A DNA stretch of 45,034 bases from Castellaniella sp. (GTDB lineage Bacteria; Pseudomonadota; Gammaproteobacteria; Burkholderiales; Burkholderiaceae_B). The DNA lies in contig NZ_SCQN01000055.1 in NCBI RefSeq assembly GCF_004321985.1, positions 1-45,034 of the forward strand, read 5' to 3'. The notes below the pieces were generated by a model. That model was given only the letters and a program-made list of their open reading frames with translations, ran no database searches and was not told where the DNA came from. Shown piece after piece: positions 7,446 to 24,164 of the stretch (position 1 is the first letter of the stretch; every line of letters starts with the position of its first letter). The position numbers and the translations under genes were made by a program.

Positions 7446-7447
7446 GC

Positions 7448-7576
7448 CTAACCTACGGGAACCCGCATAGATATTGGGTCTCCCCTGTTAATGATGAAGA
7501 GCCCTACCGCTGTGATCGTGCGGCTGAGCGTGTAGCGGCGCCCGACCGCCATGCCTTCGAACTCTTGCCTGGTCAC
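7448..7576 (-). pseudogene. MaoC-like dehydratase, N-terminal fragment
   Basis: A GTG at 7574-7576, 6 bases after the CoA-transferase stop, opens a frame reading TRQEFEGMAVGRRYTLSRTIT. This resembles the start of MaoC/hotdog dehydratases (F-E-D-x-x-V-G-x-x-F...G-R-T-I-T). After about residue 21 the resemblance stops, and the frame ends at a TAG (7448-7450) right beside tRNA-Arg after only 42 codons, where the family needs about 140. The gene has evidently lost its 3' part at a junction near 7510, which marks the left edge of the catabolic block. It was the fifth gene of the operon that starts at 11649. Confidence 0.55.
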
Positions 7577-7582
7577 CTGTTC

Positions 7583-8776
7583 TCAGCCTTTCGTCGCCTG
7601 CGCGGCCGGAATGACACCCTTGTCGACCAGATGTTGGATCTCGTCTTCTCCGTAACCCGACTCGGCGAGTACTTCGACCGTATGCTCGCCGATCCGCGGC
7701 GGTGCACGCCGCAAGGCGGGCGCCTTGCCGTCGTAGCGCACGGGGTGAGCGAGCACGCGTATCGTTCCCTTGTCGTGGTATTCGATCGGCAGCACCACCT
7801 CGTTGTGGCGGACCTGGGGGTCGCTTTCAACCTGCTCATAATCATTCACTGGCGCATACCAGATGGCGTGCTTCTCGAAGATCTCCGTCCATTCGTGCGT
7901 CGTCCGCCCCCGCACGGCTTCGCACACAATGGCATGAACCGCCTCGCGCGCCTGTCCGGCGCTCTGCCCGGCATAGTGGGCAAGCTCGGGGCGCTGCAGG
8001 GCCTCGGCCAGCTTGTCGAGCGGAGAAATCGAAATGGCGATCCAGTCATCGGCTGTCTGGTACGCCCCATAGGGCGCCGCGTGGAATCGGCTGCCCATGG
8101 AAGGCGTGGTCTTGGCCCACAAGGGACCCTTGTTCAGATAATAGGTGAACGGCTCGATTTGCAGATCCAGCGCCGCGTTGAGCAGGTTGCTCTCCACCCG
8201 GGAACCCTTGCCCGTGCGCTCGCGCTGGTGCAATGCGGCCAGCACGCCGAAGGCCGCCAGCGTGGCCGCATGCTGGTCTACGATGGCCGACCCCACCAGA
8301 ACCGGCCCCGAATCGCGGTCTCCCGACAGCTTGGACAGCCCGCTCATGGCCTGCAGCAGCACATCCTGACCCGGCCGCTCCCGATATGGCCCCGACGAGC
8401 CGTAGCCTGTACACGAGCAATAGACCAGGCGCGGGTTGACAGCCTTCAGGGCCTCGTACCCCAGGCCGAACTTCTCCAGCACGCCCGGGCGGTAATTCTC
8501 GACCAGCACATCGGCCTCGGAGGCCAGCCGGCGGGCGACCTCCTGCCCTTCGGGCTGTTGCAGGTTCAGCGCGATGCTGCGCTGATTGCGATTGGCCAGC
8601 ATGAAGAAGATGCTCACGTCATCCACGAACGCGTCGAGCCCGGCCCAATGGCGCTCCCAGGCACCGCGCGCGGGTTCGACCTTGACGACGTCCGCCCCTA
8701 TGTCGGCCAGCATCTGGACCGCGGAGGGTCCCTGAAGAAAGTGGGTGAAACTCAGGACCTTGATTCCTTCCAGCAC
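7583..8776 (-). CDS. Family III (CaiB/BaiF) CoA-transferase
   Basis: A 397-residue cytoplasmic enzyme that moves CoA between carboxylic acids through an enzyme-aspartyl intermediate. The GTG at 8776 is chosen because GAGGAGGG lies 9 bases upstream and the product then begins LEGIKVLSFTHFLQGP, matching the family start. The catalytic Asp is most likely Asp167 in GSAIVDQHAA. Other family features are ENYRPGVLEKFGLGY, the GYGSSGPY loop and RPGQD. It follows the acyl-CoA dehydrogenase by 14 bases. It is clearly related to the second CoA-transferase at 21456-22679, so the block has two paralogues. The donor and acceptor acids cannot be read from the sequence. Confidence 0.88.
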   Translation of the reverse strand: MLEGIKVLSFTHFLQGPSAVQMLADIGADVVKVEPARGAWERHWAGLDAFVDDVSIFFMLANRNQRSIALNLQQPEGQEVARRLASEADVLVENYRPGVLEKFGLGYEALKAVNPRLVYCSCTGYGSSGPYRERPGQDVLLQAMSGLSKLSGDRDSGPVLVGSAIVDQHAATLAAFGVLAALHQRERTGKGSRVESNLLNAALDLQIEPFTYYLNKGPLWAKTTPSMGSRFHAAPYGAYQTADDWIAISISPLDKLAEALQRPELAHYAGQSAGQAREAVHAIVCEAVRGRTTHEWTEIFEKHAIWYAPVNDYEQVESDPQVRHNEVVLPIEYHDKGTIRVLAHPVRYDGKAPALRRAPPRIGEHTVEVLAESGYGEDEIQHLVDKGVIPAAQATKG

Positions 8777-8790
8777 AATGGGTTCCCTCC

Positions 8791-9945
8791 TCAGGCCAAT
8801 AGTTCGCGAGAAATGATCATGCGCTGGATCTCGGAGGTTCCCTCGACGATCTCCAGCACCTTTGCGTCGCCCATGGCACGCGCGACAGGATATTCGCTCA
8901 TGATGCCGTAGCCCCCGTGGATCTGGATGGCCTGATGCGTGGCCTCCATGGCCTTCTCCGTGGCGAACAGCTTCGCCATGGACGCCTCGCGGGAAAACGG
9001 CTCGCCCCGATCCTTGCGAGCCGCGGCGTCGTAAATCATGAGACGCGCCGCATGCGTGTGGACAGCCATGTCCGCTACCTTGAATTGCAGCGCCTGAAAC
9101 TCGGAAATCGGATGGCCGAACGCCTTGCGCTCTTTCATGTAGGCGAGCGAGCGATCCAGAGACCCTTGCAGGAGTCCCAGGGCCAGCGCACCGATCAACA
9201 CGCGGCCAGTGCTGATTTGCGAGAGTGTCTGGCGCAGGCCTGCCCCCCTTTCTCCCAGGAGGTTCTCTGCCGGCAGACGGCAATCCTGGAAAGACAGCTC
9301 ATATGTGCTGGAGGCGCGCCAGCCGATCTTCTGCAGCTTGCGACCATAATGAAATCCGGGGGCGTCGCCCGGCACGATGAAGTTGGAAATCTCCTTGCGT
9401 CCATTGGCGCGCTTGCCGGTCACTGCGGCAATCACGACGGGACTGGTGATGCCCGTCCCTGTGTTGCTGATGAAAGTCTTCGCGCCATTGATGACCCACT
9501 GACTACCGTCCCAGTCGGCACGCGTCGAAACATTTGCGGCATCAGAGCCTGCATCGGGCTCGGTCAGTCCGATTGCGCCTATCCGGCTGCCTTCGAGCAT
9601 AGGCACCAGATACGCCTGTTTCTGCGCCTCCGTCCCGTAGTAATACAGCAGGCTCGACACCGTCGAATTGGCCATCACTGCATTGGCCACGGCACAATCC
9701 ACCCGTGCAAGCTCTTCGAGGACGATGGCGAAGGAAACCCAGTCACCGCCGCCTCCGTGGTATTGCACGGGATACGGCAAGGCTGGAAAGCCCAGCTTCG
9801 CCGCCTGCTTCCAGATCTCCAGCGGGAATTCCTGATGCTCCCACAACGCCTCGGAGGCCGGTGCAATCACCGCTTCTGCAAAGCGCCTCACGGCATCACG
9901 GATGATTTCATACTCGCTGTTCATGTTTGCGTCATTTTCCATCAT
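8791..9945 (-). CDS. Acyl-CoA dehydrogenase
   Basis: A 384-residue flavoprotein of the usual family length (about 380), oxidising an acyl-CoA to the enoyl-CoA and passing electrons to ETF. It has an N-terminal helical domain, a middle beta domain with IGLTEPDAGSD and FISNTGTG, and a C-terminal helical domain. The catalytic base is Glu368 in EIVEGTSEIQRM, and the FAD/CoA segment IQIHGGYGIMSEYPV is intact. The ATG at 9945 is followed by another at 9942. It lies 13 bases after the GH88 gene and before the CoA-transferase. It thus forms a CoA-transferase/dehydrogenase/hydratase set with the MaoC gene at 11212. The acyl substrate is unknown. Confidence 0.92.
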   Translation of the reverse strand: MMENDANMNSEYEIIRDAVRRFAEAVIAPASEALWEHQEFPLEIWKQAAKLGFPALPYPVQYHGGGGDWVSFAIVLEELARVDCAVANAVMANSTVSSLLYYYGTEAQKQAYLVPMLEGSRIGAIGLTEPDAGSDAANVSTRADWDGSQWVINGAKTFISNTGTGITSPVVIAAVTGKRANGRKEISNFIVPGDAPGFHYGRKLQKIGWRASSTYELSFQDCRLPAENLLGERGAGLRQTLSQISTGRVLIGALALGLLQGSLDRSLAYMKERKAFGHPISEFQALQFKVADMAVHTHAARLMIYDAAARKDRGEPFSREASMAKLFATEKAMEATHQAIQIHGGYGIMSEYPVARAMGDAKVLEIVEGTSEIQRMIISRELLA

Positions 9946-9958
9946 GTCTCACACCCAC

Positions 9959-11212
9959 TCAGGAATGCCCAGCGACGATCACAGGCGCTGAAGATGGCAG
10001 GAACTTTCCGGGCATTGCGGCGCGGCACAACGCTTCGACGAAGAAATAATCGCCAAACATCGTGGCGCTCGCCACACCGATCCGATGGGGTCGAGAGTAA
10101 CAGCTGTTGCGCAGCAGCCCACGATGCGACGCCTCGTCCGCGAATTCCTCGCGACACAGGCCGGCCAGCATTTCGAGCCCGCGTTCGCGCCAGGACAGTG
10201 CAACCGTCTCGTCAGGGTGAATGTCGCCCAACTCCAGCAGGGCCGATGCGACGGCAGCTGTCGTTGCAGTGTCCTTGATGTCCGCGTCGGGGCCCGTCGC
10301 GTCGAAATCCCAGGGCGGCACGAGGCGCCCGTTCAGGCGGGCAAGATAATAGTTGGCTGTCCGCTCTGCGAGATCCAGGTAGGCTGCTCTGCGTGTCTCC
10401 CGATAGGAAACCACGTATCCATAGATGGCCCATGCCTGGCCGCGCGACCAGTCGGACTCGTCATGCAGCCCCTGGAAGGTGAACCCGCGGGTGCGTTTGC
10501 CGGTGGCCTCGTCGTACTCCACTGCGTGATAGGTGGAGTCGTTCGGACGGATGAAGCCCTTTGCTGTCATGGCGGCGTGCGCATCCGCTGCCAAGCGGTA
10601 GCTGCCGTCGCCGCTATGGTTGGCAGCCCAGTAGAGGAGCGGCAGGTTGGCCATGGTGTCGATGGCCGAACTGCGCCGACCGCGTGGATCATCCATGGGT
10701 CCCCAGGACGCGATGTAGGCCCCCGCCGGCGTGGTGACAAGCCGGGCGCGCAGCCGGTCGGCCGCTCGCAGCGCAATCTGCGCGTACCAGTCATCTCCCG
10801 TGATGTGAAAGCCCGGAATCGCGCTGCTTTCAAAGATGAAGCCGATATCGTGCGTGTTGCCATCGTCGGCACGCTGCGCCACCAAGCGCATGCGCTCGCG
10901 CGCCCAGACCAGGTAGTGTTCGTCGCCGGTCCGTAGGTACGAGGCAAAAAGCAGTCCGACCCAGAATCCGCAGAACCAGTTGCCATGGCTCCAGGCCTCG
11001 CCCTGGTAGCCTGCCGACAGGGAGGCCGGCATCAGGTCCCAGCTGCCGTCGGTGCGTGTCACATAAGGGAATTCGACGCCCAGCCCAGGTTCGTCCTCAG
11101 CCACTTTCTGTGCCACGCGCGCCAGCGTCAGGTCGAAAAGTTCGCGCAATGGCGCCGGCAAATCATGGCGTGTTTTCTGGCTTCGGGCATCCGTTTGCGT
11201 CGTCATGTCCAT
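9959..11212 (-). CDS. GH88-type unsaturated glucuronyl hydrolase
   Basis: A 417-residue alpha/alpha-barrel glycoside hydrolase without a signal peptide, so it should act in the cytoplasm on imported oligosaccharides. GH88 enzymes hydrate the 4,5-double bond of a terminal unsaturated uronic acid and so release it. Both catalytic aspartates expected for the family are in place: Asp122 in NTHDIGFIF and Asp185 in SAIDTMANLPLLYW. WVGLLF and DWSRGQAWAIYGY are also typical. The ATG at 11210-11212 overlaps the MaoC stop (TAATG). A second ATG two codons later is possible. Sharing an operon with CoA-transferase, acyl-CoA dehydrogenase and MaoC genes is unusual, and no polysaccharide lyase is in the window. 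Confidence 0.82.
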   Translation of the reverse strand: MDMTTQTDARSQKTRHDLPAPLRELFDLTLARVAQKVAEDEPGLGVEFPYVTRTDGSWDLMPASLSAGYQGEAWSHGNWFCGFWVGLLFASYLRTGDEHYLVWARERMRLVAQRADDGNTHDIGFIFESSAIPGFHITGDDWYAQIALRAADRLRARLVTTPAGAYIASWGPMDDPRGRRSSAIDTMANLPLLYWAANHSGDGSYRLAADAHAAMTAKGFIRPNDSTYHAVEYDEATGKRTRGFTFQGLHDESDWSRGQAWAIYGYVVSYRETRRAAYLDLAERTANYYLARLNGRLVPPWDFDATGPDADIKDTATTAAVASALLELGDIHPDETVALSWRERGLEMLAGLCREEFADEASHRGLLRNSCYSRPHRIGVASATMFGDYFFVEALCRAAMPGKFLPSSAPVIVAGHS

Positions 11213-11649
11213 TACCCTTTCTTGACCCACTTGAGGATATGGTGGCCCACGGCGACCGTCTCGCCGTGCTGGTTGACAACCTGGATGTCGGCGCGCGAAC
11301 GGCGCCGCTCGGCGTCGATCTCCGAAATCGTGTAGTGCGTCGTGAGCGTGTCACCGAAGCGCACACCCTTGAGAAATCGAATCCCGTCGTAGCCCAGGGA
11401 CACCGGCAGCTCCGGGCCCGCGCTCTTGTCCTGGGTCGACTCTATCATCAGGGTCGAAGTCGTGGACATGTAGCCGACCAGCAGGGCGCCGTGCGCGATA
11501 CGCCCGCCGTAAGGCGTCTGACGCATCGTTTCTTCATCCACGTGGTTGGTCGAAAGATCGCCAGTGAGACCGGCGAAGCTGTAGACGTCATACTCGCCGA
11601 CCGTCTTGGTGAACTGGACGTGGTCGCCCACGCTGACATGAAAACTCAT
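11212..11649 (-). CDS. MaoC-family enoyl-CoA hydratase
   Basis: A 145-residue single-hotdog protein, the usual length for R-specific hydratases and MaoC-like dehydratases. The active-site pair Asp31 and His36 lies in TGDLSTNHVDEE, followed by GRIAHGALLVGY, the standard MaoC signature. It adds water to (or removes it from) an acyl-CoA. It is the first gene of a minus-strand operon (MaoC, GH88, acyl-CoA dehydrogenase, CoA-transferase, truncated MaoC), and AGGAGG stands 7 bases before the ATG. The upstream gap is shared with the divergent DapA-like gene. The substrate is unknown. Confidence 0.88.
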   Translation of the reverse strand: MSFHVSVGDHVQFTKTVGEYDVYSFAGLTGDLSTNHVDEETMRQTPYGGRIAHGALLVGYMSTTSTLMIESTQDKSAGPELPVSLGYDGIRFLKGVRFGDTLTTHYTISEIDAERRRSRADIQVVNQHGETVAVGHHILKWVKKG

Positions 11650-12053: not shown

Positions 12054-12980
12054 ATGGTAACCCCCAAGAAGATTCGTGGCGTGCTATCTCCGGTATTGAC
12101 CCCCTTCAACGCCGACTATTCCGTGGCGGAAGAACGATTTGTCGACCACTGCCGCACGCTGGTCGATTGTGACGTCGGCCTTGCTATCTTCGGCACGAAT
12201 TCTGAAGGGAACTCGCTGTCCGTACGCGAGAAAATGCAGCTGATGGACCGGCTGGTCGATGAGGGCCTGCCGGCTGACCGAATGATGCCGGGAACGGGTT
12301 GCTGCTCGCTTAGCGACTCCATCGAACTGACCCGCCACGCGGTCGAACTCGGCTGCGCCGGTGTCCTGATGCTGCCCCCTTTCTTCTACAAGGGAGTGAG
12401 CGATGCGGGCCTGTACCGGAACTACGCGGCGATCATCGATGCCGTTGCAAGCGAACAGCTGCGAATCTACCTGTACCACATTCCGCACGTCAGCCACGTG
12501 GGTATCACCTACGGGCTTATCGAACACCTGCTTCGGGACTTTCCAGCGACCATCGCGGGGGTCAAGGACAGTTCGGGCGACTGGAACAACACGCTGGGAA
12601 TGCTGGAACAATTCCAGCCGCACGGCTTCGACGTGTTCGCAGGCAGCGAGCCCTTCCTTCTCGAGACCATGCGTCATGGTGGGGCAGGCTGTATTTCCGC
12701 CACCGGCAACGTCAATGCCAGCGCCATCTCCCGCCTGTATGCTACTTGGCAGGAGAATTCAGCAGACCGGCAGTAGGCCGCTCTCAACACCGTTCGCTCC
12801 GTCTTTCAGAAGTTCCCAATGATTCCGGCGATGAAATCGGCCATCGCCACTCAGAAGCAGGACTCGGAATGGTGCACGCTCAGACCGCCGCTGGTCGAGC
12901 TGGATAGTGAACAGACCCGCCAGCTGCAGCAAGCGCTTGCGGCGATCGACTTCGAACCCAATGGATCGCGCCCGTACTGA
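12054..12980 (+). pseudogene. DapA-family aldolase/dehydratase with in-frame amber stop
   Basis: A DHDPS/KDG-aldolase-type protein. The frame runs 240 codons to a TAG at 12774-12776. It then continues in the same frame for 67 more codons to a TGA at 12978-12980, with sequence that is clearly the missing C-terminal part (AALNTVRSVFQKFPMIPAMK onward). Together they make 308 residues, the normal length. The catalytic residues are present: Schiff-base Lys171 in AGVKDSSGD, Tyr141 in YLYHIP and the GTNSEGN loop. In uronate pathways this family cleaves or dehydrates keto-deoxy sugar acids. The amber codon would remove the last helices. It may be a recent nonsense mutation, suppressed in vivo, or a sequencing error. 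Confidence 0.75.
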
Positions 12981-13180
12981 CGCGATCCACGGGCGTCCCA
13001 CACAAGCGGACGAGACCGCTTACAGATTTCCCTTTCATGCTGCCCCCACGGAGGCGAAGCAGACATAGACGGCAAGATTACCTTTCTTGATCACGATCAT
13101 GCGGTAAAGGGAACATAAGCCCTCTGGGCTGCCCGTTCGCGGGTCCAACGAATTCCCACGCCGTCCAGGAGACATACCGA

Positions 13181-14083
13181 ATGGCACCCAAACCGATCAA
13201 GCGGAGATTTTTCGGCGAACAGCAGCGCTTTGCCCTTGCGCTGGTGGCTCCCGCTGCCTTGATACTCATCTTCTTCCAGCTGATTCCCATCATCATGGGC
13301 ACCAGCGCGAGCTTTCGCGACTGGATGCTGTTCAATCCAAAAAAGACCTGGGTTGGACTCGCACAATATAAAGCGGTGCTGACGGACTCGGGCTTCCTCA
13401 CGATCGTTCTGCCCAACACCTTCCTTTTCATGATTTCCAGCGTCGTGATCTCGCTGGTGATCGGGATGATGCTCGCATTGGCCATGAACCGGGCCTTTAT
13501 CGGTAGGAAGCTCGTGCAGACCATATTGCTGCTGCCGTTGATGGTTGCGCCAGTCATCGCCGCCATCATGATGCGCTGGATCTTCAACGACCAGTTCGGC
13601 ATCGTCAACGTGGTGCTCGAGGCGCTGGGCGGTACAGGCCAGGCATGGCTCGTGCAGCGGTGGAGCGCCTTCAGCGTCATCGTGCTCACGGACGTCTGGC
13701 TGTGGGCTCCCTGGTTCGGCCTGCTGCTGTTGGCCGGGCTTCAAAGTCTGCCGAAAGAACCCTTCGAAGCGGCGGAAATCGATGGCACGACGGCCTGGCG
13801 TACCTTCCGCTACCTGACGCTGCCGATGCTCAAGCCCGTCATCATCGTCTGCATCGTGATCCGTGCCATCGATGCCTTCCGCACCTTCGATACTGTATGG
13901 GCGCTGACCGGGGGAGGTCCGGCGCGGCAGACAGAGCTCTTCAGCCTCTATGCCTATGAAGAAGCTTTCGTCTTCCTGAATTTTGCCAAGGGAACCGCAG
14001 CTGCCATCGTCGGCGCAATCATCATCTTGGTGGCCGGGCTCGCACTGTACCGCGCCTTGGGCCACGTACGGAGGGCTGGTTAA
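13181..14083 (+). CDS. ABC sugar transporter permease (MalF/UgpA type)
   Basis: A 300-residue inner-membrane protein with six predicted membrane segments (first at about 18-40). The EAA loop for ATPase docking reads EAAEIDGTTAWRTFRYLTLP near residues 200-220. It forms a channel with the next gene. The ATG at 13181 has AGGAGA 9 bases upstream. The 200-base gap after the DapA-like gene has no gene but contains TTACC...GGTAA half-sites. Family 1 carbohydrate importers of this sort bring in mono- to oligosaccharides or their derivatives, and the neighbours point to a uronic-acid-containing sugar. The second permease starts at the next base after the stop. Confidence 0.9.
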   Translation: MAPKPIKRRFFGEQQRFALALVAPAALILIFFQLIPIIMGTSASFRDWMLFNPKKTWVGLAQYKAVLTDSGFLTIVLPNTFLFMISSVVISLVIGMMLALAMNRAFIGRKLVQTILLLPLMVAPVIAAIMMRWIFNDQFGIVNVVLEALGGTGQAWLVQRWSAFSVIVLTDVWLWAPWFGLLLLAGLQSLPKEPFEAAEIDGTTAWRTFRYLTLPMLKPVIIVCIVIRAIDAFRTFDTVWALTGGGPARQTELFSLYAYEEAFVFLNFAKGTAAAIVGAIIILVAGLALYRALGHVRRAG

Positions 14084-14917
14084 ATGAACGGAATCCAGCG
14101 AGGCTTCGCAGCAGCCCTTGCGCCGGGGGCGCGCAAGATCACTTTCATCTGCGGGATGATGATTACCTGCTTCCTCTTCGCCTTCCCTGTGCTGTGGATC
14201 ATCCTCACGTCGATCAAGCCCCAGGCGGATATCTATTACGTCTACAAGGGGACGGACTTCACCCTGGACAACTTCGTCCAGGTGCTGGTCAACCCGCGCA
14301 TCGTCCAGGCCTTCGTCAACAGTGCAGTGGTCGCCACGACGGCAACGGTTGTCTCCATCATCGTAACCGTCTCCAGCGGCTACATGCTCTCCCGCATCAA
14401 GGGACCCATTTCGCGCACCTGGTTCGGCGCGATTTATGCAATGCGTTGCGTGCCATTCGTCACCTGGGTACTGCCTCTGTATTTCGTTGAACAGCAATAC
14501 GGGCTCTACGACACCTACACAGGCCTGTTCCTGGCGCACGTGGCCGTGCACATCTGTTTCTTTTCATGGCTCATGAAGGGTTTCTTCGACGGGATCGACC
14601 CCTCGATGGAGTATGCGGCGCTCATCGATGGCTGCACGCGGTGGGGAGCATTCTTGCGGGTGGCAGTGCCTTCTGCGCTGCCTGCCATCTCGGCGCTGGC
14701 CGTGCTCTCGTGGCTGTTTTCATGGAACGAGTTTTTGTTCGCCCTCATCCTGACCGGCCAGCACACGCCCCTGACCACCGTGGTCATGGCACAGTTCGTC
14801 TCGGAAATGGGCATGCAGTGGAACCTGATGGCCGCCACTGCCGTGCTGGCGCTGGTGCCGGCCTTCCTGCTCACGCTCTTTGGTCAGAAGTATGTGATCC
14901 GAGGCCTCAAGATCTAG
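14084..14917 (+). CDS. ABC sugar transporter permease (MalG/UgpE type)
   Basis: A 277-residue partner permease with six hydrophobic segments, the first at about 19-42. The EAA-type loop is near residues 175-195 (MEYAALIDGCTRWGAFLRVA). The C-terminus ends FGQKYVIRGLKI, the close of almost every MalG-family protein. Its ATG directly follows the stop of the first permease, so the two are made together. It acts with the binding protein and ATPase downstream. Substrate specificity cannot be read from permeases. Confidence 0.9.
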   Translation: MNGIQRGFAAALAPGARKITFICGMMITCFLFAFPVLWIILTSIKPQADIYYVYKGTDFTLDNFVQVLVNPRIVQAFVNSAVVATTATVVSIIVTVSSGYMLSRIKGPISRTWFGAIYAMRCVPFVTWVLPLYFVEQQYGLYDTYTGLFLAHVAVHICFFSWLMKGFFDGIDPSMEYAALIDGCTRWGAFLRVAVPSALPAISALAVLSWLFSWNEFLFALILTGQHTPLTTVVMAQFVSEMGMQWNLMAATAVLALVPAFLLTLFGQKYVIRGLKI

Positions 14918-15002
14918 GAGGAGTGCATTTATGACATGACCCCGAAACTAGGTTTTCCAAAAATAGTTGGTGAAGGTCCACCCAATTGAAGGAGACTGCC
15001 AG

Positions 15003-16353: not shown

Positions 16354-16372
16354 GCACTAGAAAGAGCCCCCC

Positions 16373-17464
16373 ATGAGTGAAATCGTACTGAGTCGAGTGA
16401 ACAAGCACTACGGCACCACATTCCACGCAGTCAAAGACGTGGACTTGACCATCAGCGACAAAGAGTTTGTCGTCCTGGTCGGTCCCTCGGGGTGCGGGAA
16501 ATCCACCACGTTGCGCATGATTGCCGGTCTGGAAGACATCAGCAGTGGCGAGATCCGCATCGGTGACCGCGTCGTGAACACCCTGCCACCTCGGGATCGT
16601 GACATTGCCATGGTCTTTCAGAATTACGCCCTCTACCAGCATATGACGGTGTATGATAACCTGGCTTTCGGCCTGCGCAACAAGAAAATGCCAGAGGAAA
16701 AGATCAAGCAGGCCATCGGTCACGTCACCGAAATTCTGGGCCTGGGCACGATGCTGCAACGTAAGCCGCGCCAGCTCTCGGGTGGGCAGCAGCAGCGGGT
16801 CGCCCTGGGCCGTTGCATCGTCCGGAACCCCCAGGCGTTCCTTTTCGACGAACCCCTGTCCAACCTGGACGCCAAGCTGCGTACGCAGATGCGCGTGGAA
16901 ATCAAGCGGTTGCGCGCGCGAGTGCCCACTACGTCCGTCTTCGTCACTCACGACCAAGTCGAGGCGATGACCTTGGGTGATCGAGTGGTCGTCATGCGGG
17001 ATGGCTCCATCCAGCAATGCGGTACTCCCCTGCAGGTCTACAGCGAGCCGTCCAACAAGTTCGTCGCGGGCTTCATCGGAGCACCTGCGATGAATTTCCT
17101 GTCGGCGGAAATCCGCATGGAAGAAGGCGGGCTTGTGGCACACGCGCCGGGGCTGCGCATTCCGGTGCCAGCGCGCTGCCGCGAAGCGCTGTTCTCTCGG
17201 GCGGACCACAAGGTCATTCTGGGGGTGCGGCCGGAACACCTTTCCATCACCCCCACGGACAAGCCGATCGGCGCTGCACAGGTCGAGGTCGTGGAGCAGC
17301 TCGGTGCGGAATTGGTGATCGAAACCCTGGTCGAGGGGCAAGCTATCACCGTTTCCAGGATGGACCCGACGCTGCACATTACCGCGGGCCAGAAGGTCGA
17401 CCTGCACGTCACCAGCGAGCAATTACATTTCTTCGATCCTGAAACCGAATGGCGCATCCAATGA
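16373..17464 (+). CDS. ABC sugar transporter ATPase (MalK/UgpC type)
   Basis: A 363-residue ATPase that powers the importer. The Walker A motif GPSGCGKST is near residues 37-45, the Q-loop is FQNYALY, the signature is [13 protein letters not shown] near 135, Walker B is FLFDEPLSN, and the H-loop is VFVTHDQ. Residues about 240-363 form the C-terminal OB-fold (TOBE) regulatory domain of MalK-like proteins. It ends in ATGA overlap with the uronate dehydrogenase, so transport and the first oxidation step are translationally coupled. Confidence 0.92.
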
Positions 17465-18294
17465 CTCCCTTTACACAACCGAAGAAACTCAAGATTCTGA
17501 TCACGGGCGCCGCCGGCAATATCGGCACGTGCCTGCGCACGCATCTGCGCGGCCGGTACGGCCTCATGCGCCTTGCGGACATCGCCGACCAGGAAGCGGG
17601 GCAGGGGAACGAAGAGATTTACGCGTTCGACGTCCGCGACATGAAGTCGGTCGAACGCTGCATGAACGGCATTGACTGTGTGGTGCACCTGGCCGGAATT
17701 CCGGGTGCGGATACCTGGGAGAAGATCCTGCCGATGAACATCGAAGGCTGCTACAACGTCTTCGAGGCGGCACGACGCGCCGGTGTCCGACGGGTCATCT
17801 TCGCGAGCTCCAACCACGCGGTGGGTTACCACCGCCGCGAGAAATTCCTCGACAACACGGTCCAGCCCCGCCCCGACTCGCGCTACGGCATCTCGAAGGT
17901 ATTCGGGGAAGCAGTCGGGCGCATGTACGCAGACAAGTACGGCCTGTCGGTAGCCTGCCTGAGGATAGGCACCTTCCGTACGCCCGATCGGCCCGACGAA
18001 TCCAGGCAGTTGCTCACCTGGATCAGCCATCGGGATATGGCGCAACTGGTGCGCTGCTGCATCGAGCACGAGTCCTACCACTTCGTCGTAGCCTACGGCG
18101 TATCGAACAACCTGCGCAACCGCTGGGACAATTCCAATGTGAAGTTCCTCGGATACCGCCCCGAAGACGACTCGGAGGTCTTCGCCGAGGAGATCCTCGC
18201 CCGGAACATCCCCGAAGATCCGATTGCGGCACAGTTCCACGGTGGGTTCTATTGTCCGCTCGAATTCGTCGGATCAACCGACCGAGTCGATTGA
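17461..18294 (+). CDS. udh: Uronate dehydrogenase (NAD-dependent)
   Basis: A 277-residue short-chain (epimerase-type) dehydrogenase. The ATG at 17461 overlaps the ATPase stop (ATGA). An ATG at 17449 would add four residues. The NAD-binding motif is GAAGNIG at residues 16-22, the SSNHAVGYH segment carries the catalytic Ser, and Tyr142/Lys146 lie in YGISK. These match bacterial uronate dehydrogenases, which oxidise glucuronate or galacturonate at C1 to the aldaro-lactone. The next gene encodes a lactonase, supporting the call. The family also includes other sugar epimerases, but the neighbours argue for an oxidative uronate route. Confidence 0.82.
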   Translation: MTPFTQPKKLKILITGAAGNIGTCLRTHLRGRYGLMRLADIADQEAGQGNEEIYAFDVRDMKSVERCMNGIDCVVHLAGIPGADTWEKILPMNIEGCYNVFEAARRAGVRRVIFASSNHAVGYHRREKFLDNTVQPRPDSRYGISKVFGEAVGRMYADKYGLSVACLRIGTFRTPDRPDESRQLLTWISHRDMAQLVRCCIEHESYHFVVAYGVSNNLRNRWDNSNVKFLGYRPEDDSEVFAEEILARNIPEDPIAAQFHGGFYCPLEFVGSTDRVD

Positions 18295-18324
18295 TTTTAT
18301 TCATACTGCACCCCAGGAAACGCC

Positions 18325-19248
18325 ATGTTCGCCGCCCCCCCCGTCATCAGCACTGAGGTATTCGCCGTCATCCCCGACGAGTTTCGCATCCGGGGCCGGA
18401 CCAACCAATGGGTCGACGTGCAGCGTGGCGGCGCGGAAACCGGTTGCTTCCTCGAAGGTCCGTCGTTCGACCGGGACGGCAACCTGTTCGTGGTGGACGT
18501 GGCCTGGGGGCGGATCTTCCGCATCTCGCCCGATGGCAAGAAGGTAGAGCTGTTCGTCGAATACGACGGCGAGCCCAACGGGTTGAAGATTCACCGAGAT
18601 GGGCGCATCTTCGTGGCTGACTATCGCCACGGAATCATGGTCGTCGATCCCGACACACGCATCGTCAGGCCTTATCTGGACCGCTCCATCCTGGATCGGT
18701 TCAAGGGCGTCAATGATCTCGTCTTCGCCTCCAACGGCGACCTGTACTTCACCGATCAGGGGATGACGGGTATGCACGATCCCACCGGCTGCCTCTACCG
18801 CCTGGAAGCCAACGGGCGACTGGTACGGCTGTTGGACAACATCCCCAGTCCCAACGGTCTGGTGCTCAGCCTCGATGAATCGGCGGTCTTCGTGAACGCG
18901 ACCCGTGGCAACTGTGTCTGGCGGGTGCCACTTTGGCCCAACAATCGCATGCCCTACAAGGTGGGAATCTTTATCCAGCTCTCAGGAGCGCTAGGCGGGC
19001 CCGATGGGCTTGCCATCGACAGTGCGGGCAATCTGGCTGTCGCGCATATCGGTCTGGGTGTCATCTGGCTATTCAGCCGGCTGGGCGAACCCATTGCGCG
19101 CATCAACTCGTGCAAAGGGCTGGCAACCACCAACCTGGCTTATGGCGGACCTGACAACCGGACGCTCTACATCACCGAATCAGATTCGGGGTCTGTCCTG
19201 ACGGCCAGGCTCGACACGCCCGGTCAGCCGATGTTCTCGCATATGTGA
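18325..19248 (+). CDS. SMP-30/gluconolaconase-family lactonase
   Basis: A 307-residue six-bladed beta-propeller that hydrolyses sugar lactones using a divalent metal. Likely metal ligands are Glu44 in FLEGPSFD, Asn177 in SPNG and Asp227 in GGPDGLAID, with spacing close to SMP-30 (Glu18, Asn154, Asp204). There is no signal peptide, so it is cytoplasmic. It sits 30 bases after uronate dehydrogenase and would open the aldarolactone that enzyme makes. It is convergent with the LysR gene, leaving only 13 bases between the two stops, where CCGCCAGGGCGG can form a small hairpin. Confidence 0.85.
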   Translation: MFAAPPVISTEVFAVIPDEFRIRGRTNQWVDVQRGGAETGCFLEGPSFDRDGNLFVVDVAWGRIFRISPDGKKVELFVEYDGEPNGLKIHRDGRIFVADYRHGIMVVDPDTRIVRPYLDRSILDRFKGVNDLVFASNGDLYFTDQGMTGMHDPTGCLYRLEANGRLVRLLDNIPSPNGLVLSLDESAVFVNATRGNCVWRVPLWPNNRMPYKVGIFIQLSGALGGPDGLAIDSAGNLAVAHIGLGVIWLFSRLGEPIARINSCKGLATTNLAYGGPDNRTLYITESDSGSVLTARLDTPGQPMFSHM

Positions 19249-19261
19249 TCCGCCAGGGCGG

Positions 19262-20122
19262 CTACAACGCGACGCGGCGAAACTCCTGGACCAGTTCCTT
19301 GCGAATGGAAGAGCGCAGCATCAGCAGGCCGACCGACCGGGTGGGAGTGGGCCCCGGCAGGCGATGCTGTCGCACCGACGGGCCGTCGATTCCGTAGGCA
19401 GCCGAGCTGGGCAGGATGGCGACACCCAGACCGTTCCTGACAAAGTTTGCGATGTGCAGGATTCCGTCAAGCTCCACCTGCGTGTTGGGTTCGAGATTAT
19501 GGGCCTTCAGATAATCGTCGACCATCTTGCCGCCCACGACCCTCCGGTCGTACCGGATGAAGGGGTTCTGGCGAATGATGTCGAATGGATGCTGGCCGCC
19601 GATATCGGTCGGTGTCAGCAACACAATGGTGTCGGTCCAAAGAAGCTGCCAATCGCAGATCTTGGGAAGGTTGAACAGCGGCTTGGTCAGGATGGCTGCG
19701 TCCAGATCCTTGTCCAGGACGCGTTGGTACAAGATGGTCGATGAGGCAGGCTCCAGCAGGATGGAAATATCGGGGTGCCTGCTCGTCCATCGGCGCAGCA
19801 TTGCGGGGAGCATGCTGTCCATGGCTGAAGGAATCGCTCCCAGGGTCAGCGGTCCCGCCGGAAACTCGTTGCTGCTGGCCATGGACAAGAAATTATCGAC
19901 CTCAGAGAGCAGCAGTCTTGCCCGCGACAGGACCTTGATCCCCACATCCGTTGGCACGACCGTGCGCCCCGCGCGTTCGATCAGCCGCTCATGGACCTCT
20001 TCCTCGAGTGATTTGATGCGCAGCGACACCGCCGTGGGCGTCAGATGTAGTGAGCGGGCCGCTCCGGCGATGGAGCCGAGCTCGACGACCTTGACAAAGC
20101 TTTCGAGGAAACGTGTGTCCAT
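19262..20122 (-). CDS. LysR-family transcriptional regulator
   Basis: A 286-residue regulator. Residues 1-60 are the winged helix-turn-helix (LESFVKVVELGSIAGAARSL then LTPTAVSLRIKSLEEE), followed by a linker helix and a type 2 periplasmic-binding-like effector domain from about 90. It is divergent from the enolase-superfamily gene at 20319, the classic LysR layout. A 7-11-7 dyad (20209-20233) in the gap is a good binding-site candidate. It probably senses a uronate or aldarate intermediate and switches on the block, but the effector is inferred only. Confidence 0.9.
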   Translation of the reverse strand: MDTRFLESFVKVVELGSIAGAARSLHLTPTAVSLRIKSLEEEVHERLIERAGRTVVPTDVGIKVLSRARLLLSEVDNFLSMASSNEFPAGPLTLGAIPSAMDSMLPAMLRRWTSRHPDISILLEPASSTILYQRVLDKDLDAAILTKPLFNLPKICDWQLLWTDTIVLLTPTDIGGQHPFDIIRQNPFIRYDRRVVGGKMVDDYLKAHNLEPNTQVELDGILHIANFVRNGLGVAILPSSAAYGIDGPSVRQHRLPGPTPTRSVGLLMLRSSIRKELVQEFRRVAL

Positions 20123-20178
20123 TTTTCTTCAACAAGGCGTTCGACTCATCCCGCGATACTCCTGAAAATCCACTTTCC

Positions 20179-20238
20179 GTTCATTCTAAACCCACAGAAA
20201 AGGCATTGTTCTTTGAACCGGTATCGCAAAGAATGAAC
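20179..20238. promoter_or_regulatory. LysR-type operator dyads between regulator and enolase-family gene
   Basis: TTCTTTG (20209-20215) and CAAAGAA (20227-20233) form a perfect 7-bp inverted repeat spaced by 11 bases, the T-N11-A pattern of LysR sites. A second perfect pair, GTTCATTCT (20179-20187) and AGAATGAAC (20230-20238), shares the right arm and spans 60 bases. Two half-sites at such a distance fit a LysR tetramer that bends DNA. The right arm overlaps the -35 of the rightward promoter. Confidence 0.6.
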
Positions 20239-20262
20239 AGCAGAACATAACACCCCGATAAT
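20234..20262 (+). promoter_or_regulatory. Sigma-70 promoter candidate for the enolase-family gene
   Basis: The -35 is TGAACA (20234-20239) and the -10 is GATAAT (20257-20262), with a 17-base spacer. The -35 matches 4 of 6 bases and the -10 5 of 6. The weak -35 overlaps the LysR dyad, as expected for an activator-dependent promoter. The gene starts 57 bases further on. Confidence 0.5.
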
Positions 20263-20318
20263 CCGGTGGAACATCATATCTTGAATCATCCGCCGTTCTC
20301 GTTCATAGGAAGAAACCC

Positions 20319-21434
20319 ATGCCCACCATTGCCACTATCGAGACCTGCGCACCGGCTGTCCCCCTGGATAAAATAACATCGTTCTCCAACCGGACGGTGT
20401 CCGAACGGCATTATGGCCTCGTGAAGATTCGTTCGACCGATGGGGTAGAAGGGATCGGTTTCTGTTATGTCGGGACTTCGGGTGGCGCCATTTTCACGAA
20501 GATCGTGAAGGACCTCTTTAAGCCGCTATTATTGGGCGCCGACTCGTACGCGACCGAGGCCCACTGGGCCGCCATGTACCAGGAGGCCTTGCTGCAGGGC
20601 CGCGCGGGAACCGCGATGCGGGCACTTAGCGCGCTGGACATTGCCATGTGGGATCTGAATGCCAGGACCCATGGGGTTCCGCTGCATAAATATCTGGGCG
20701 CCATGGACCTGAACGAGGTTCCGGCCTACGCGAGTGGCGGCTACTATCTCGACGGCAAGAGCCCCAACGACCTTGCCAAGGAAATGACGGATTATGTCGC
20801 GCTGGGTTTCAAGGCGGTCAAGATGAAATCCGGGCGCCTCTCGCCCGCTGAAGAAGAAATCCGACTCAGGACGGTGCGCGAGGCGGTCGGTCCCGACATC
20901 GACATTATGATGGACATGAATAATGCTTGGTCCGACACGACTCAGGCCATGCGCTATGTGCGTCGTTTTGAAGCCTATGATCCCTATTTCTTCGAAGAAC
21001 CGTTCCTGCCGGACGACATCGACAACCACGCGCGTCTGGCGAAACTGACGCGGGTCCCCATTGCCACGGGCGAAATCGGCTATGGACGCTGGTACCACAA
21101 GGCCCTGATGGAAAAAGGCGGTGCGTCCATCCTCCAGACCGACGCGGCCGTATGCGGCGGGATCACGGAATGGCGCCGGATCGCTCAGACGGCGGCCAGC
21201 AACGGCCTGGTGATGCTGCCGCACTGGTTTCACGACCTGCATGCGCCGCTGGTCGCCAGCATGCCCAACGCGCATTTCGTGGAATTCTTCGCCAACGACC
21301 AGGTGCTCAACTTCCGCAAGCTGCTCGATCGCCAGCTTTCATTCAAGAATGGCAAGATCCAGCTTCACCAGGAACCGGGCCTGGGGTTCGGGTTCGACGA
21401 GGCCTCCCTTGCCAAGCTGGCCAGGTGGGAATGA
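20319..21434 (+). CDS. Mandelate-racemase-type acid-sugar dehydratase or cycloisomerase
   Basis: A 371-residue enolase-superfamily enzyme of normal length. Its active site matches the mandelate racemase subgroup: Lys168 and Lys170 (KMK), metal ligands Asp199 (MMDMNN), Glu226/227 (EEP) and Glu252 (TGEIG), and an Asp275/His302 dyad (QTDAAVCGG, LPHWFHD). Such enzymes take the alpha proton from a sugar acid and remove water. Plausible reactions here are aldarate dehydration or aldarolactone cycloisomerisation, following uronate dehydrogenase and lactonase. It is alone on the right side of the LysR regulator and convergent with the second CoA-transferase operon (21 bases apart). Confidence 0.85.
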   Translation: MPTIATIETCAPAVPLDKITSFSNRTVSERHYGLVKIRSTDGVEGIGFCYVGTSGGAIFTKIVKDLFKPLLLGADSYATEAHWAAMYQEALLQGRAGTAMRALSALDIAMWDLNARTHGVPLHKYLGAMDLNEVPAYASGGYYLDGKSPNDLAKEMTDYVALGFKAVKMKSGRLSPAEEEIRLRTVREAVGPDIDIMMDMNNAWSDTTQAMRYVRRFEAYDPYFFEEPFLPDDIDNHARLAKLTRVPIATGEIGYGRWYHKALMEKGGASILQTDAAVCGGITEWRRIAQTAASNGLVMLPHWFHDLHAPLVASMPNAHFVEFFANDQVLNFRKLLDRQLSFKNGKIQLHQEPGLGFGFDEASLAKLARWE

Positions 21435-21455
21435 ACTGGCCGTCTTTTTCCAACC

Positions 21456-22679
21456 TCATTCGGTTGTCGGACTTCCGGAGGAACTGTCGCTCCAACTGAC
21501 CACCCCGTGATTGCGAAGGCCTTCAATGGTCTCCTGGTTCAGGCCGAGTTCTCCCAGAATTTCCTGTGTCTGGGCGCCCAGGGCCTGCGGCGGCAGGCGT
21601 ACGCCCGGTGCCTGGCCGTCATAGCGGACGGGGTGGCTGACCAACCCCACCGGCGTACCCGTCCAGCCTTCGACCTCAGCGAAGCTTTGCAGGTGACGGA
21701 CCTGAGGGTCGGCGAGCACAGCGGCATAATCGTTGACCGGCGAGTACCAGATATGCCTTTCTTCAAACCGGTCGACCCAATGCGCTGTGGTTTCGCGAAT
21801 GAGGTAGTGCGCCAGAATCGTTGAGATGTCTTCTTGCCGCTGGAAGGCCTCCGCCTCGGGAATCCGTTCTGATGCGGGCACGCCCAGCACGTCGTAGATG
21901 GTTTCCAGCGGGCAGAGAGAGATTGCCAGATGGCCGTCCCGGCTCGGATACACGCCATAGGGTGCCGGAAAATACCATCCTGAAACCCTGCCCGGTTGAC
22001 GGATGTCCGCTGGCGGCTGCTTGCTGTTCAGGTAGCACACGAACGATTCCTGTTGCAGGTCAATTGCTGAGGACAGCAGATTCACATCGACCCTGCCGCC
22101 TTGCCCCGTGCGCTCACGCCGCAGCAAGGCTGCCAGGATTCCCATCGCATAGAGCGCCGCGCCATGGTGATCCACGACGGAGACTCCGACGGCGCGCGGC
22201 CCATGTTCACGATCGCCAGTGATGGCCGCAAGCCCCGACATTGCCTGAATGATCAGGTCCTGGCCCGGACGATTGACGTAAGGGCCCGTTGTCCCGAAAC
22301 CGGAAGCTGCCGCATAGATGATGTCCGGCTTGATGGCCCTGGCGGCCTCGTAGCCCAGACCCAGTCCGTCCATGACTCCGGGACGATAATTCTCGGCCAG
22401 CACGTCCACTGTGGCAATCAGCTGGCGTGCGATCTCGACGCCCCGAGGGTCCTTGAGATTGAGCGCCAGACTGCGCTTGTTCCGGTTGCCCGCCAGCTGC
22501 AGCATGGTCTGGCCATCCACGGTCTCACCGGTCCCGCCCCACTTGCGCTGGAACGCACCCTGGATGGGTTCGACCGAGATGACGTCGGCACCCAGGTCGC
22601 CCAGATGCTGGACGCCGACCGGCCCCATGAAGAAATGATTGAAACTCAGGATCCGTACGCCTTCCAATCCGAACGCCAT
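21456..22679 (-). CDS. Family III (CaiB/BaiF) CoA-transferase, second copy
   Basis: A 407-residue paralogue of the protein at 7583-8776, sharing LSFxHFxxGP near the start, ENYRPGV, RPGQD and the QAMSGL segment. The probable catalytic aspartate is Asp170 in VSVVDHHGAA. The ATG at 22679 is preceded by GGAAG. It lies 105 bases downstream of the second GH88-type gene on the same strand, so each GH88 gene in the block is paired with its own CoA-transferase. The paired arrangement suggests the two copies handle different but related acids. The substrates are not known. Confidence 0.88.
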   Translation of the reverse strand: MAFGLEGVRILSFNHFFMGPVGVQHLGDLGADVISVEPIQGAFQRKWGGTGETVDGQTMLQLAGNRNKRSLALNLKDPRGVEIARQLIATVDVLAENYRPGVMDGLGLGYEAARAIKPDIIYAAASGFGTTGPYVNRPGQDLIIQAMSGLAAITGDREHGPRAVGVSVVDHHGAALYAMGILAALLRRERTGQGGRVDVNLLSSAIDLQQESFVCYLNSKQPPADIRQPGRVSGWYFPAPYGVYPSRDGHLAISLCPLETIYDVLGVPASERIPEAEAFQRQEDISTILAHYLIRETTAHWVDRFEERHIWYSPVNDYAAVLADPQVRHLQSFAEVEGWTGTPVGLVSHPVRYDGQAPGVRLPPQALGAQTQEILGELGLNQETIEGLRNHGVVSWSDSSSGSPTTE

Positions 22680-22784
22680 TTGCTTCCACCCACAAGAAAG
22701 TCACTGATACCCGGAAGTGTGATCCAACGGACTGGCCGGGTTTCGAAGAGGAGAATCCCCGGGATGTCCAGCCAGGGGATCCCG

Positions 22785-24059
22785 TCAGAGCTCCTCGGCC
22801 TTGAGCGAGCCCACTAGCAGCAGGAGGCACTCGACAAGGAAATAGGAACCGAAAATCAGTTCCGCGTTGGTCACCCGGTCATGCGACCGGGAATCGGGAC
22901 GGTTGTTGAAGCAGCCCCCGACCAACATGCCAGCCGGCCGGCCGCCGCCTTCGCGCGTCAGATAGTCGCGCACCAATGCGCGCACCGAGTGTTCCGCCGC
23001 CTGCCGATAGCGCGCACGGTCATCGGCTGTGGGCGCGTACTGCGCCAAGCGCAACAGTGCTGCGCTGGCGATCGTGGTGGCCGCCGTGTCGCGCGGAGCG
23101 TCCGGGATGGCCGGATCGTCGAAATCCCAATAAGCAACCCCGTCCGCGGGCAAATGGGCCAGCCACCAGTCTGCCGCGCGCATGCTGTGGGCCAGCCACT
23201 GTGGTTGTCGGGTGCGCACGAATGCCATGGCGGTATACAGCATCCCCCATCCCTGGGCTCGGCCCCAGATGCTGGTATTGCTGAAGCCTTTGTGCGTGAA
23301 GTGGCGCTTCACTCGTCCCGTCGTCGCATCCAGTTCGCTGGACTGGATGATGGAGCCGTCGGGGCGGCAATGCACACGGAATACCTGCTCCGTATGGCGA
23401 TCCGCACACTCGCGGAACCGCTGATTGGCGGCCTCGTCGGCCGCCCAGTACAGCAGCGGGCTTGCCTGAAGCGAGTCTATGCTGCTGAAGACGCTGCCCG
23501 TCTCGCCGGCTTCCTCGGCTTCCGGACCCAGCGGGATCAGGCCCAGCACCGGATCGAATTGCGCAGCGAGCGACTCGGCTGCTTCCTCGGCCATCCGCCC
23601 CAATTCATCGTCCTTGGCCAGGATGCTGCCCAGGACTGCGCCGCAGAAGAATCCAAAGCCCTTGAACACGGTCTGGCGATGCACGCGTGGTCGAAGGCGC
23701 AGCCCCCAGGTGTGTGCCAGGTCCCGTAGCTGCTGCCCGCCGGTGAGCCTGTATCCCAGCCACAGGATCCCCGGAAAAGCACCACCAGTCCAGTCGCCAT
23801 CGGGCGTCGTGGTCCACTTGCCGGTACTGGCATCTGCCCAGTGTGGGAAACCTTTGCCTTCAAGGGTGAAGGCACTCTGCTCCGCGCGCCGCACCATCAA
23901 TGCAGCCGCGGCCTCCCAGGAGATGGGTTCCGAATCATGCGTCGCCAAGGTCTGCCTCTCTTCACGTTCGGCCACATATCCCCGGTCCTGCCCGGGCCCA
24001 TGTCGCACAGCGCGATAGGGGCGGTCGTCGAGTTCGTTGGCAGGAAGGGCGAGGCTCAT
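22785..24059 (-). CDS. GH88-like hydrolase lacking one catalytic Asp
   Basis: A 424-residue cytoplasmic protein of the GH88 unsaturated-glucuronyl-hydrolase fold. Family features include SSIDSLQASPLLYWAADE (Asp195), a THKGFSN...WGRAQGWGMLYT stretch and the YWDFDDP plus DTAATTIAS region. The site of the first catalytic Asp (THDIGF in the other copy) reads FKGFGF, with Gly134 in place of Asp. It is therefore either an enzyme with an altered mechanism and substrate or no longer a hydrolase. The first 40 residues are poorly conserved in style, and the true start may be a little further in. It heads a two-gene operon with the second CoA-transferase. Confidence 0.75.
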   Translation of the reverse strand: MSLALPANELDDRPYRAVRHGPGQDRGYVAEREERQTLATHDSEPISWEAAAALMVRRAEQSAFTLEGKGFPHWADASTGKWTTTPDGDWTGGAFPGILWLGYRLTGGQQLRDLAHTWGLRLRPRVHRQTVFKGFGFFCGAVLGSILAKDDELGRMAEEAAESLAAQFDPVLGLIPLGPEAEEAGETGSVFSSIDSLQASPLLYWAADEAANQRFRECADRHTEQVFRVHCRPDGSIIQSSELDATTGRVKRHFTHKGFSNTSIWGRAQGWGMLYTAMAFVRTRQPQWLAHSMRAADWWLAHLPADGVAYWDFDDPAIPDAPRDTAATTIASAALLRLAQYAPTADDRARYRQAAEHSVRALVRDYLTREGGGRPAGMLVGGCFNNRPDSRSHDRVTNAELIFGSYFLVECLLLLVGSLKAEEL

Positions 24060-24164
24060 CGGCGGTGCCGATGTTCTCGGTAGATTCTATCGCAGGACTG
24101 GACGGCGTGATTTGCGTTTTCGGCCTCGGTCGTTGCCAGCAGCGATCCCTGGAGGGTTGGGCGT

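Follow-up and report, generated by a model that had tools for sequence, protein, structure and literature searches.

What would a hydrolase of glycoside hydrolase family 88 (GH88) do beside enzymes that make and process coenzyme A (CoA) esters? These hydrolases are placed in polysaccharide breakdown pathways that depend on a lyase. In Castellaniella sp. (NCBI RefSeq assembly GCF_004321985.1, a genome of 3.41 Mb in 86 contigs), the first 45,034 nt of contig NZ_SCQN01000055.1, referred to here as the window, carry two genes for GH88-type proteins, GH88A and GH88B, each in a short minus-strand group with a gene for a family III CoA-transferase (CaiB1 and CaiB2, respectively). Comparison with other genomes shows that the conserved unit is GH88 together with CaiB and an enoyl-CoA hydratase-type enzyme, most often accompanied by an importer; roughly half of the loci also encode an acyl-CoA dehydrogenase (ACAD). 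The association between GH88 and CoA genes is real and wide.

Gene identities were checked by Pfam, NCBIfam, and PDB sequence searches, with the Pfam scan of the window covering 39 chosen open reading frames (ORFs) rather than all frames. These searches gave matches for each family named in a preliminary description of the window, and the gene set at 7583-24059 was thereby borne out. The first minus-strand group begins with a MaoC-family hydratase/dehydratase (11212..11649; Pfam MaoC, 48 bits), whose nearest PDB entry is 4ffu and whose further matches include R-specific enoyl-CoA hydratase. The stop codon of this gene overlaps the ATG of GH88A at 11212 (TAATG). GH88A (9959..11212) matches the unsaturated glucuronyl hydrolase (UGL) structure 1vd5 over residues 83-404 (8.2e-51), and the Pfam GH88 model scores 21.5 bits on it, under the 26.6 cut-off (E 0.001). 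The ACAD gene (8791..9945; Pfam Acyl-CoA_dh_1, 168 bits) lies 13 nt after GH88A and 14 nt before CaiB1; its best NCBIfam model is acryloyl-CoA reductase at 394 bits, under the cut-off of 640. CaiB1 (7583..8776; Pfam CoA_transf_3, 371 bits) starts with a GTG at 8776 that, as read from the sequence, is preceded by GAGGAGG. The second group consists of CaiB2 (21456..22679; Pfam, 311 bits) and GH88B (22785..24059), which matches PDB 2ahf, an unsaturated glucuronyl hydrolase (9e-40), and was assigned no Pfam family at E 0.001. The two CaiB proteins share 45% identity, and the two GH88-type proteins share 31%. The preliminary description had placed sugar and CoA genes interleaved in the same operons. 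For GH88 and the CoA genes this is correct, as MaoC-GH88A-ACAD-CaiB1 form a tight unit and CaiB2 and GH88B are on the same strand 105 nt apart; however, separate plus-strand units hold the importer, the uronate dehydrogenase, the lactonase, and the enolase-family dehydratase.

We used GH88A as a query against genome samples of the order (300 genomes) and the family (268 genomes). Matches were rare, found in 4/300 and 7/268 genomes with the window's own genome counted in each, and in four family members the matching GH88A is 65-84% identical. Three of these genomes (G307, G461, and G473) each encode, in the GH88A stretch, CaiB (63-77%), ACAD (72-78%), a crotonase, two MaoC proteins (28-42%), and a TRAP importer; neither uronate dehydrogenase nor SMP-30 had a match in these GH88A stretches. 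A profile of the five GH88A proteins (the window's and the four from the family), picked regardless of CaiB, and two short peptide patterns were then scanned on genome contigs, yielding 72 loci, most of which were taken with 10 kb on each side. CaiB was found in 66/72 of these loci, MaoC in 55/72, crotonase-type enoyl-CoA hydratase (ECH) in 54/72, and ACAD in 39/72, and 63 of the 66 CaiB-holding loci also hold a hydratase of the MaoC or crotonase type. All four genes occur together in 38 loci; the other loci hold CaiB with MaoC (8), CaiB with ECH (8), CaiB with MaoC and ECH (8), CaiB with MaoC and ACAD (1), CaiB alone (3), or none of the four (6). Because eight loci have only MaoC beside CaiB and another eight have only ECH, the same place seems to be taken by either of two unrelated hydratase families. 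A minimal locus of Bradyrhizobium type, L072, encodes a Liv importer, GH88, LacI, CaiB, and MaoC.

Importer genes, identified through checked representatives, are present at 53/72 loci (TRAP, 34; CUT2, 7; CUT1, 6; Liv, 6). GH88 abuts a CoA gene on the same strand within 120 nt in 14/72 loci. Carriers of the GH88A clade are soil, plant-associated, and symbiotic bacteria of the Burkholderia group, Bradyrhizobium, Cupriavidus, and other Hyphomicrobiales. One genus group, comprising Caballeronia and one record named Burkholderia turbans, contributes 15 of the 72 loci (L042-L056); when counted by taxon, with labels from record titles, CaiB is present in 37/41 taxa and CaiB with a hydratase in 35/41. 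Divergence of GH88A correlates with that of the nearest CaiB (r=0.888, n=70, with one genome counted twice as L037 and G473), and 0/999 permutations were as high.

Several GH88A loci carry other genes. In G408 (L019/L020), GH88A has neighbors encoding a TauD-type dioxygenase, tripartite tricarboxylate receptors, IclR, 3HCDH, and an enolase-family protein. Beside GH88A, six loci (L069, L070, L073, L074, L075, and L093) encode a ribose-type importer, a crotonase, and CaiB, together with a DUF1349 protein and a choline dehydrogenase-like GMC oxidoreductase. L081, which already has CaiB, MaoC, and GH88A, encodes a further GH88-type protein (12466-13656; Pfam, 39.7 bits) directly after a second CaiB.

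In genomes rich in catabolic genes, CoA genes could be neighbors of GH88 by chance. CaiB genes are indeed common, with 10-32 per genome in six Burkholderiales-family genomes of 3.4-5.5 Mb; gene order varies among loci, and the genus relatives compared lack the cluster next to the corresponding tRNA gene. Against this, a random 21-kb stretch would hold CaiB in only ~5-15% of cases, an estimate from the CaiB density of these six Burkholderiales-family genomes, vs the 66/72 seen. GH88 loci of other types provide a control. In a phylum sample, 21/398 genomes had GH88 matches (own genome included), and 24 neighborhoods, three of them short (10.7-18.0 kb), were taken from the phylum and order samples. 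In the 22 canonical neighborhoods outside GH88A and GH88B, full-length CaiB, MaoC, and ACAD were each found in none and ECH in one; one of these loci (L118) has a 54-residue CaiB-like stretch only. The two GH88B-type neighborhoods from the same samples differ, with CaiB 262 nt away in L135 and none in L132. Likewise, none of the three annotated rhizobial canonical GH88 plasmid loci, whose gene tables are incomplete, lists CoA genes; the tables show DUF2264 proteins and importer genes of CUT1 type, with KdgD or KduI in two of the loci. Given these controls and the co-divergence of GH88A with CaiB (r=0.89), chance is a very improbable explanation.

GH88 residues were placed by alignment to solved UGL in a census of 111 sequences, in which the 77 GH88A sequences include second copies and two genomes twice (L037/G473 and L090/G307). 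Active-site roles have been described for UGL residues W42, D88, D149, and H193 (PMC4528949). Equivalents of D149, W42, R221, and W225 are kept in 111/111 sequences, whereas those of D88 and H193 are kept in 77/77 GH88A and 22/22 control sequences, in 0/11 GH88B sequences, and not in G502. We take R221 and W225 to have active-site roles as well. Judged from its sequence, GH88A is therefore a GH88-type hydrolase with its active-site residues intact. The partner enzymes also align at catalytic positions: the CaiB catalytic Asp in 69/70 nearest CaiB proteins, with a gap in one, and the MaoC catalytic Asp and His in 58/58 nearest MaoC proteins. All 11 GH88B sequences have F at the D88 column and Q (10) or E (1) at the H193 column, while keeping the catalytic Asp D149; the GH88B reaction may differ from that of ordinary GH88 enzymes, and GH88B could cleave another enol ether. 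GH88A forms one clade (support 1.0) and GH88B another (0.999), with GH88B members in the window (22785-24059) and at L026, L030, L036, L039, L040, L064, L084, and L135. The deeper nodes, at which GH88A, GH88B, and the controls join, are weak (0.23-0.47).

Relatives of GH88B also occur on plasmids. We examined seven of the 25 listed among 213 matches; six are annotated, and a CoA-transferase lies within 8 kb of GH88B in 6/6 of these. The Agrobacterium pusense locus also has a Liv importer, aldehyde dehydrogenase, and electron transfer flavoprotein (ETF) genes, the last a hint that a dehydrogenase there acts as an oxidant. The Aminobacter locus also has an ACAD, an Fe-dependent alcohol dehydrogenase, and an AMP-binding protein. 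On plasmid p2 of Cupriavidus pinatubonensis (L173), the order is GH88, MaoC, CoA-transferase, Fe-dependent alcohol dehydrogenase, ACAD, and synthetase, and a GH88B-like locus in G417 (L021) has a family I transferase, an AMP-binding enzyme, an ACAD, and MaoC; by gene content, both look like clusters for CoA-dependent degradation of ethers or acids. As these relatives differ in their transferase or synthetase and hydratase sets, either partner, the enzyme that loads CoA or the hydratase, can be drawn from unrelated families while GH88 stays constant.

GH88 acts on a C4=C5 enol ether by hydration (PMC4528949), and in the known GH88 pathways described in one account this double bond is supplied by a lyase (PMC5430744). 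No polysaccharide lyase was recognized among the gene clusters present in at least 5 of the 72 GH88A loci, and no lyase-specific genome search was made; some recurring clusters (AraC, LacI, and AsnC types) were labeled by eye, and one of 152 aa is unlabeled. The double bond needs a source. Compared with CoA-dependent degradation of a released acid, a CoA step that precedes GH88 and takes the uronide as its substrate is the better fit.

A uronic acid residue is a 3-hydroxy acid, with the carboxyl at C6, the alpha carbon C5 bearing the ring oxygen, and the beta carbon C4 bearing a hydroxyl. CaiB and a hydratase could therefore dehydrate a uronide to its 4,5-unsaturated form. In the scheme that we propose, an importer would bring in the uronide, and CaiB would place CoA on its carboxyl, where the thioester would make the C5-H more acidic. 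MaoC or crotonase would then take water from C4-C5, giving 4,5-unsaturated uronyl-CoA in which the ring provides an E-like enoyl geometry. CaiB would pass the CoA on to the next uronide, freeing the 4,5-unsaturated uronide, and GH88 would hydrate the enol ether such that the glycosidic bond breaks to yield 5-keto-4-deoxyuronate and the aglycone or sugar. In this way the CoA enzymes would stand in for the polysaccharide lyase upstream of GH88, acting on single uronides and not just on polymers. A similar exchange occurs in carnitine dehydration by CaiD and CaiB, during which CoA is cycled between product and substrate (PMC2131755). The ACAD could open a second route to enol ethers, by oxidation of a saturated alkoxy-acyl-CoA. 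We infer every uronyl-CoA reaction, the order of steps, and the substrate, and we rate the conversion of an ordinary uronide into a GH88 substrate by CaiB and a hydratase, in place of a lyase, at somewhat under an even chance. The broader proposal is slightly more tentative: lyase-free uronide cleavage (CoA thioester, dehydration, CoA hand-on, GH88) that, with the dehydrogenase and GH88B, would extend to a general CoA-dependent strategy of ether cleavage.

What would follow GH88 may be read from other genes. FAH-type proteins resembling 2-keto-3-deoxyarabinonate dehydratase recur in 23/72 GH88A loci (one representative tested), DapA-family genes of one cluster in 8, and aldehyde dehydrogenase in 6; the recurrence of the FAH-type and DapA-family genes is fitting for a keto-deoxy acid product. 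As the preliminary description had stated for the window, KduI is absent: there is no PF04962 match in the whole own genome, while the same model matches in 6/14 control genomes. The own genome does have KdgD at another locus (417 bits vs the 374 cut-off), with SMP-30-like (31%) and MR_MLE-like (24%) neighbors. In the window, uronate dehydrogenase and the lactonase could oxidize C1 of 5-keto-4-deoxyuronate to give 5-keto-4-deoxyglucarate, a possible substrate of this genomic KdgD.

Several observations weigh against dehydration of a uronyl-CoA upstream of GH88. We know of no enzyme that has been shown to accept uronyl-CoA. As a family rule, MaoC enzymes are R-specific, and both MaoC and crotonase eliminate syn; by our reading of the stereodescriptors, C4 of glucuronate suits an S-specific crotonase, and R-like galacturonate would need anti elimination. 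Loci with MaoC as the only hydratase fit the scheme less well because of this mismatch. The scheme also has no need for the ACAD (39/72 loci) or for the second MaoC of many Burkholderiales loci. Three CaiB-holding loci lack a hydratase, and 6/72 loci lack CaiB; one of the latter (L060) ends at a contig edge just past LacI, before the CaiB position of sister loci, and another (L094) has a broken GH88, with L067, L085, L088, and L091 unaccounted for. In G408, GH88A (66% identity) is without the CoA set, as CaiB at 35% is ~12 kb away and neither MaoC nor ACAD has a match. GH88 is >1 kb from the CoA genes in most Burkholderiales loci, MaoC or enoyl-CoA hydratase is listed in only 3/6 annotated GH88B plasmid loci, and the co-divergence of GH88A and CaiB can come partly from shared species history.

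The preliminary description had suggested the opposite order of events, in which an acidic aglycone or acyl group could be freed first and then handled as a CoA ester; CaiB would activate this acid after its release by GH88, and ACAD and MaoC or ECH would degrade it. The co-conservation of GH88 with CoA genes lends this partial support, as all four of CaiB, MaoC, ECH, and ACAD occur together in 38/72 loci, and two GH88B plasmid loci combine a CoA synthetase or AMP-binding protein with an Fe-dependent alcohol dehydrogenase and an ACAD, while a third such locus has ETF genes. Its chemistry, however, is weakened by a search for beta-oxidation genes (E 1e-12), in which the queries, three frames for thiolase and one for 3-hydroxyacyl-CoA dehydrogenase, matched in 0/72 loci; one thiolase frame, from L147 (492 aa vs 396 reported), may be wrong, and the other two agree with the reported frames. 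The CoA genes thus do not look like aglycone beta-oxidation, which we rejected as the principal explanation. Ligase-like matches were found in 5/72 loci. A Pfam tally at 16 loci, covering 86/128 listed ORFs and the first 25/80 families after removal of GH88A, CaiB, MaoC, and several importer clusters, added only ECH (3 ORFs) and one CaiB as recurring acyl-CoA steps. Moreover, the minimal loci have a single hydratase, holding of the counted CoA genes only CaiB and MaoC (8) or only CaiB and ECH (8), and GH88 would still need an unsaturated substrate where no lyase is recognized. Release of an aglycone ahead of the CoA steps is therefore unlikely overall, and keeps most room above all at ACAD-holding loci and at GH88B loci with an acyl-CoA synthetase.

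Another explanation removes the sugar: ACAD or a hydratase would convert an ether acid to an alkoxy-enoyl-CoA, and hydration by GH88, chiefly GH88B, would split the ether into an alcohol and a keto acid. The loss of D88 and H193 in 11/11 GH88B proteins and their relatives, with the catalytic Asp D149 kept, is consistent with such a role, as are three plasmid relatives with Liv-type importers and aldehyde dehydrogenase, two of which have ACAD, Fe-dependent alcohol dehydrogenase, and a ligase-type gene; breakdown of polyethylene glycol ethers via a vinyl or enol ether has also been proposed (PMC7299911). GH88A nevertheless keeps its sugar-site residues, and CUT1-type permeases for sugar import lie in the locus of GH88B both in the window and in Bradyrhizobium (five loci: L026, L030, L036, L039, and L084), so we consider a non-sugar substrate quite unlikely. 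Slightly less probable again is that the CoA genes act after GH88 on a sugar-derived acid that is neither the uronide nor an aglycone. The same co-conservation data would suit this order; among CaiB-family enzymes are mesaconate and glutarate types, whose NCBIfam models score better here though far under cut-off, and the nearest solved structure to CaiB2 is succinate-hydroxymethylglutarate CoA-transferase (PDB 9br7, 1.6e-58). However, CoA-free routes from 5-keto-4-deoxyuronate are described for other bacteria (PMC5430744), and the recurring FAH, DapA-type, and aldehyde dehydrogenase genes (23, 8, and 6 of 72 loci) are able to serve such routes, and no enzyme that would complete a CoA route was recognized.

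The remaining genes between the two GH88 groups of the window are mostly on the plus strand. They encode a DapA-family protein (12054..12776; Pfam DHDPS, 121 bits, profile positions 2-223 of 289), two permeases of an ATP-binding cassette (ABC) sugar importer (A, 13181..14083; B, 14084..14917; both Pfam BPD_transp_1), a solute-binding protein (14967..16310; Pfam SBP_bac_1, 102 bits), a MalK-type ABC ATPase (16373..17464; Pfam ABC_tran, OB_MalK, and TOBE_2), a uronate dehydrogenase (17449..18294; matches solved uronate dehydrogenases, PDB 3rft, 3.6e-56), an SMP-30/gluconolactonase-type lactonase (18325..19248; Pfam SGL, 143 bits), and an enolase-superfamily acid-sugar dehydratase (20319..21434; Pfam MR_MLE_C, 203 bits), with a LysR regulator (19262..20122; Pfam) on the minus strand. 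The best NCBIfam model for the dehydratase is talarate/galactarate dehydratase (217 bits, under the 500 cut-off). The DapA family assignment stands, but not an intact gene: an in-frame TAG at 12774-12776 follows 240 codons and the frame is open on to 12980, so the gene is probably broken, or the TAG is an assembly error. The preliminary description had joined these sugar genes and the CoA genes in one catabolic block. Across the 72 loci, this holds for GH88 with the CoA genes, where sugar- or acid-type importers also recur, and not for the oxidative uronate genes (uronate dehydrogenase, 1/72; SMP-30, 0/72; enolase-family dehydratase, 2/72 at 30-33%). We accordingly rejected the whole window gene set as one conserved pathway; the uronate-oxidation genes look like a local companion outside the conserved core. 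Elsewhere in the window, a second catabolic-looking block (36578-44042) has an enoyl-CoA hydratase, a Liv-type binding protein and permeases, and a UbiD decarboxylase.

The MaoC-GH88A-ACAD-CaiB1 unit adjoins a tRNA-Arg(tct) gene at 7369-7445. PLA1 with tRNA-Arg within ~5 kb is kept in the six longer genus stretches compared; a seventh stretch (L166) is short and is not among the six scanned for tRNA. Beside tRNA-Arg/PLA1 in these relatives, there are no CaiB, GH88, ACAD, or importer permease genes, and three have weak MalK- or DapA-type matches only (28-31%). Because the cluster is absent at this position in six relatives, it looks inserted at tRNA-Arg in the window. A tRNA-borne integrative island was considered and rejected, as the tRNA 3' end is not repeated in the window; no wider search was made.

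The GH88 clade of these soil, plant-associated, and symbiotic bacteria has a different partner, CoA-ester chemistry. In open-licence full-text literature, outside of which lie subscription papers and preprints, we found no account of uronyl-CoA or of GH88/UGL joined with CoA-transferase chemistry, though both enzyme names occur in one Pleurotus multi-omics paper, and the pairing suggests an unreported way to prepare uronic-acid compounds, or similar ethers, for cleavage. If the proposed scheme is true, single glucuronides and galacturonides would be open to GH88 without a lyase, uronyl-CoA would extend the list of known CoA esters, and a testable role would be at hand for many genes whose annotation is merely "CoA transferase" or "glycoside hydrolase family 88 protein".

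Three known systems resemble parts of the window. It shares uronate dehydrogenase, SMP-30, and an enolase-family dehydratase with the oxidative uronate pathway, with KdgD elsewhere in the genome; however, these genes are not co-conserved with GH88 and CaiB. The glycosaminoglycan GH88 pathway comprises a lyase, an importer, UGL, DhuI/KduI, DhuD/KduD, KdgK, and KdgA (PMC5430744). GH88A is like its UGL in being GH88-type with active-site residues kept and an importer in the locus, whereas the window system is without a recognized lyase, its genome lacks KduI, CaiB and a hydratase are present instead, and GH88A forms its own supported clade. The CaiABCDE carnitine system is matched in many GH88A loci by a CaiB-type transferase, a crotonase, and an ACAD. 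NCBIfam equivalog models for Cai proteins scored under cut-off in the window (L-carnitine CoA-transferase, 128 and 93 of 413 bits; crotonobetainyl-CoA dehydrogenase, 159 of 540 bits). The Cai enzymes dehydrate a 3-hydroxy acid as its CoA ester, cycling CoA between substrate and product, as we propose here; unlike them, the GH88A loci add GH88 and sugar- or acid-type importers, MaoC often replaces or joins the crotonase, and the proposed substrate is a uronide.

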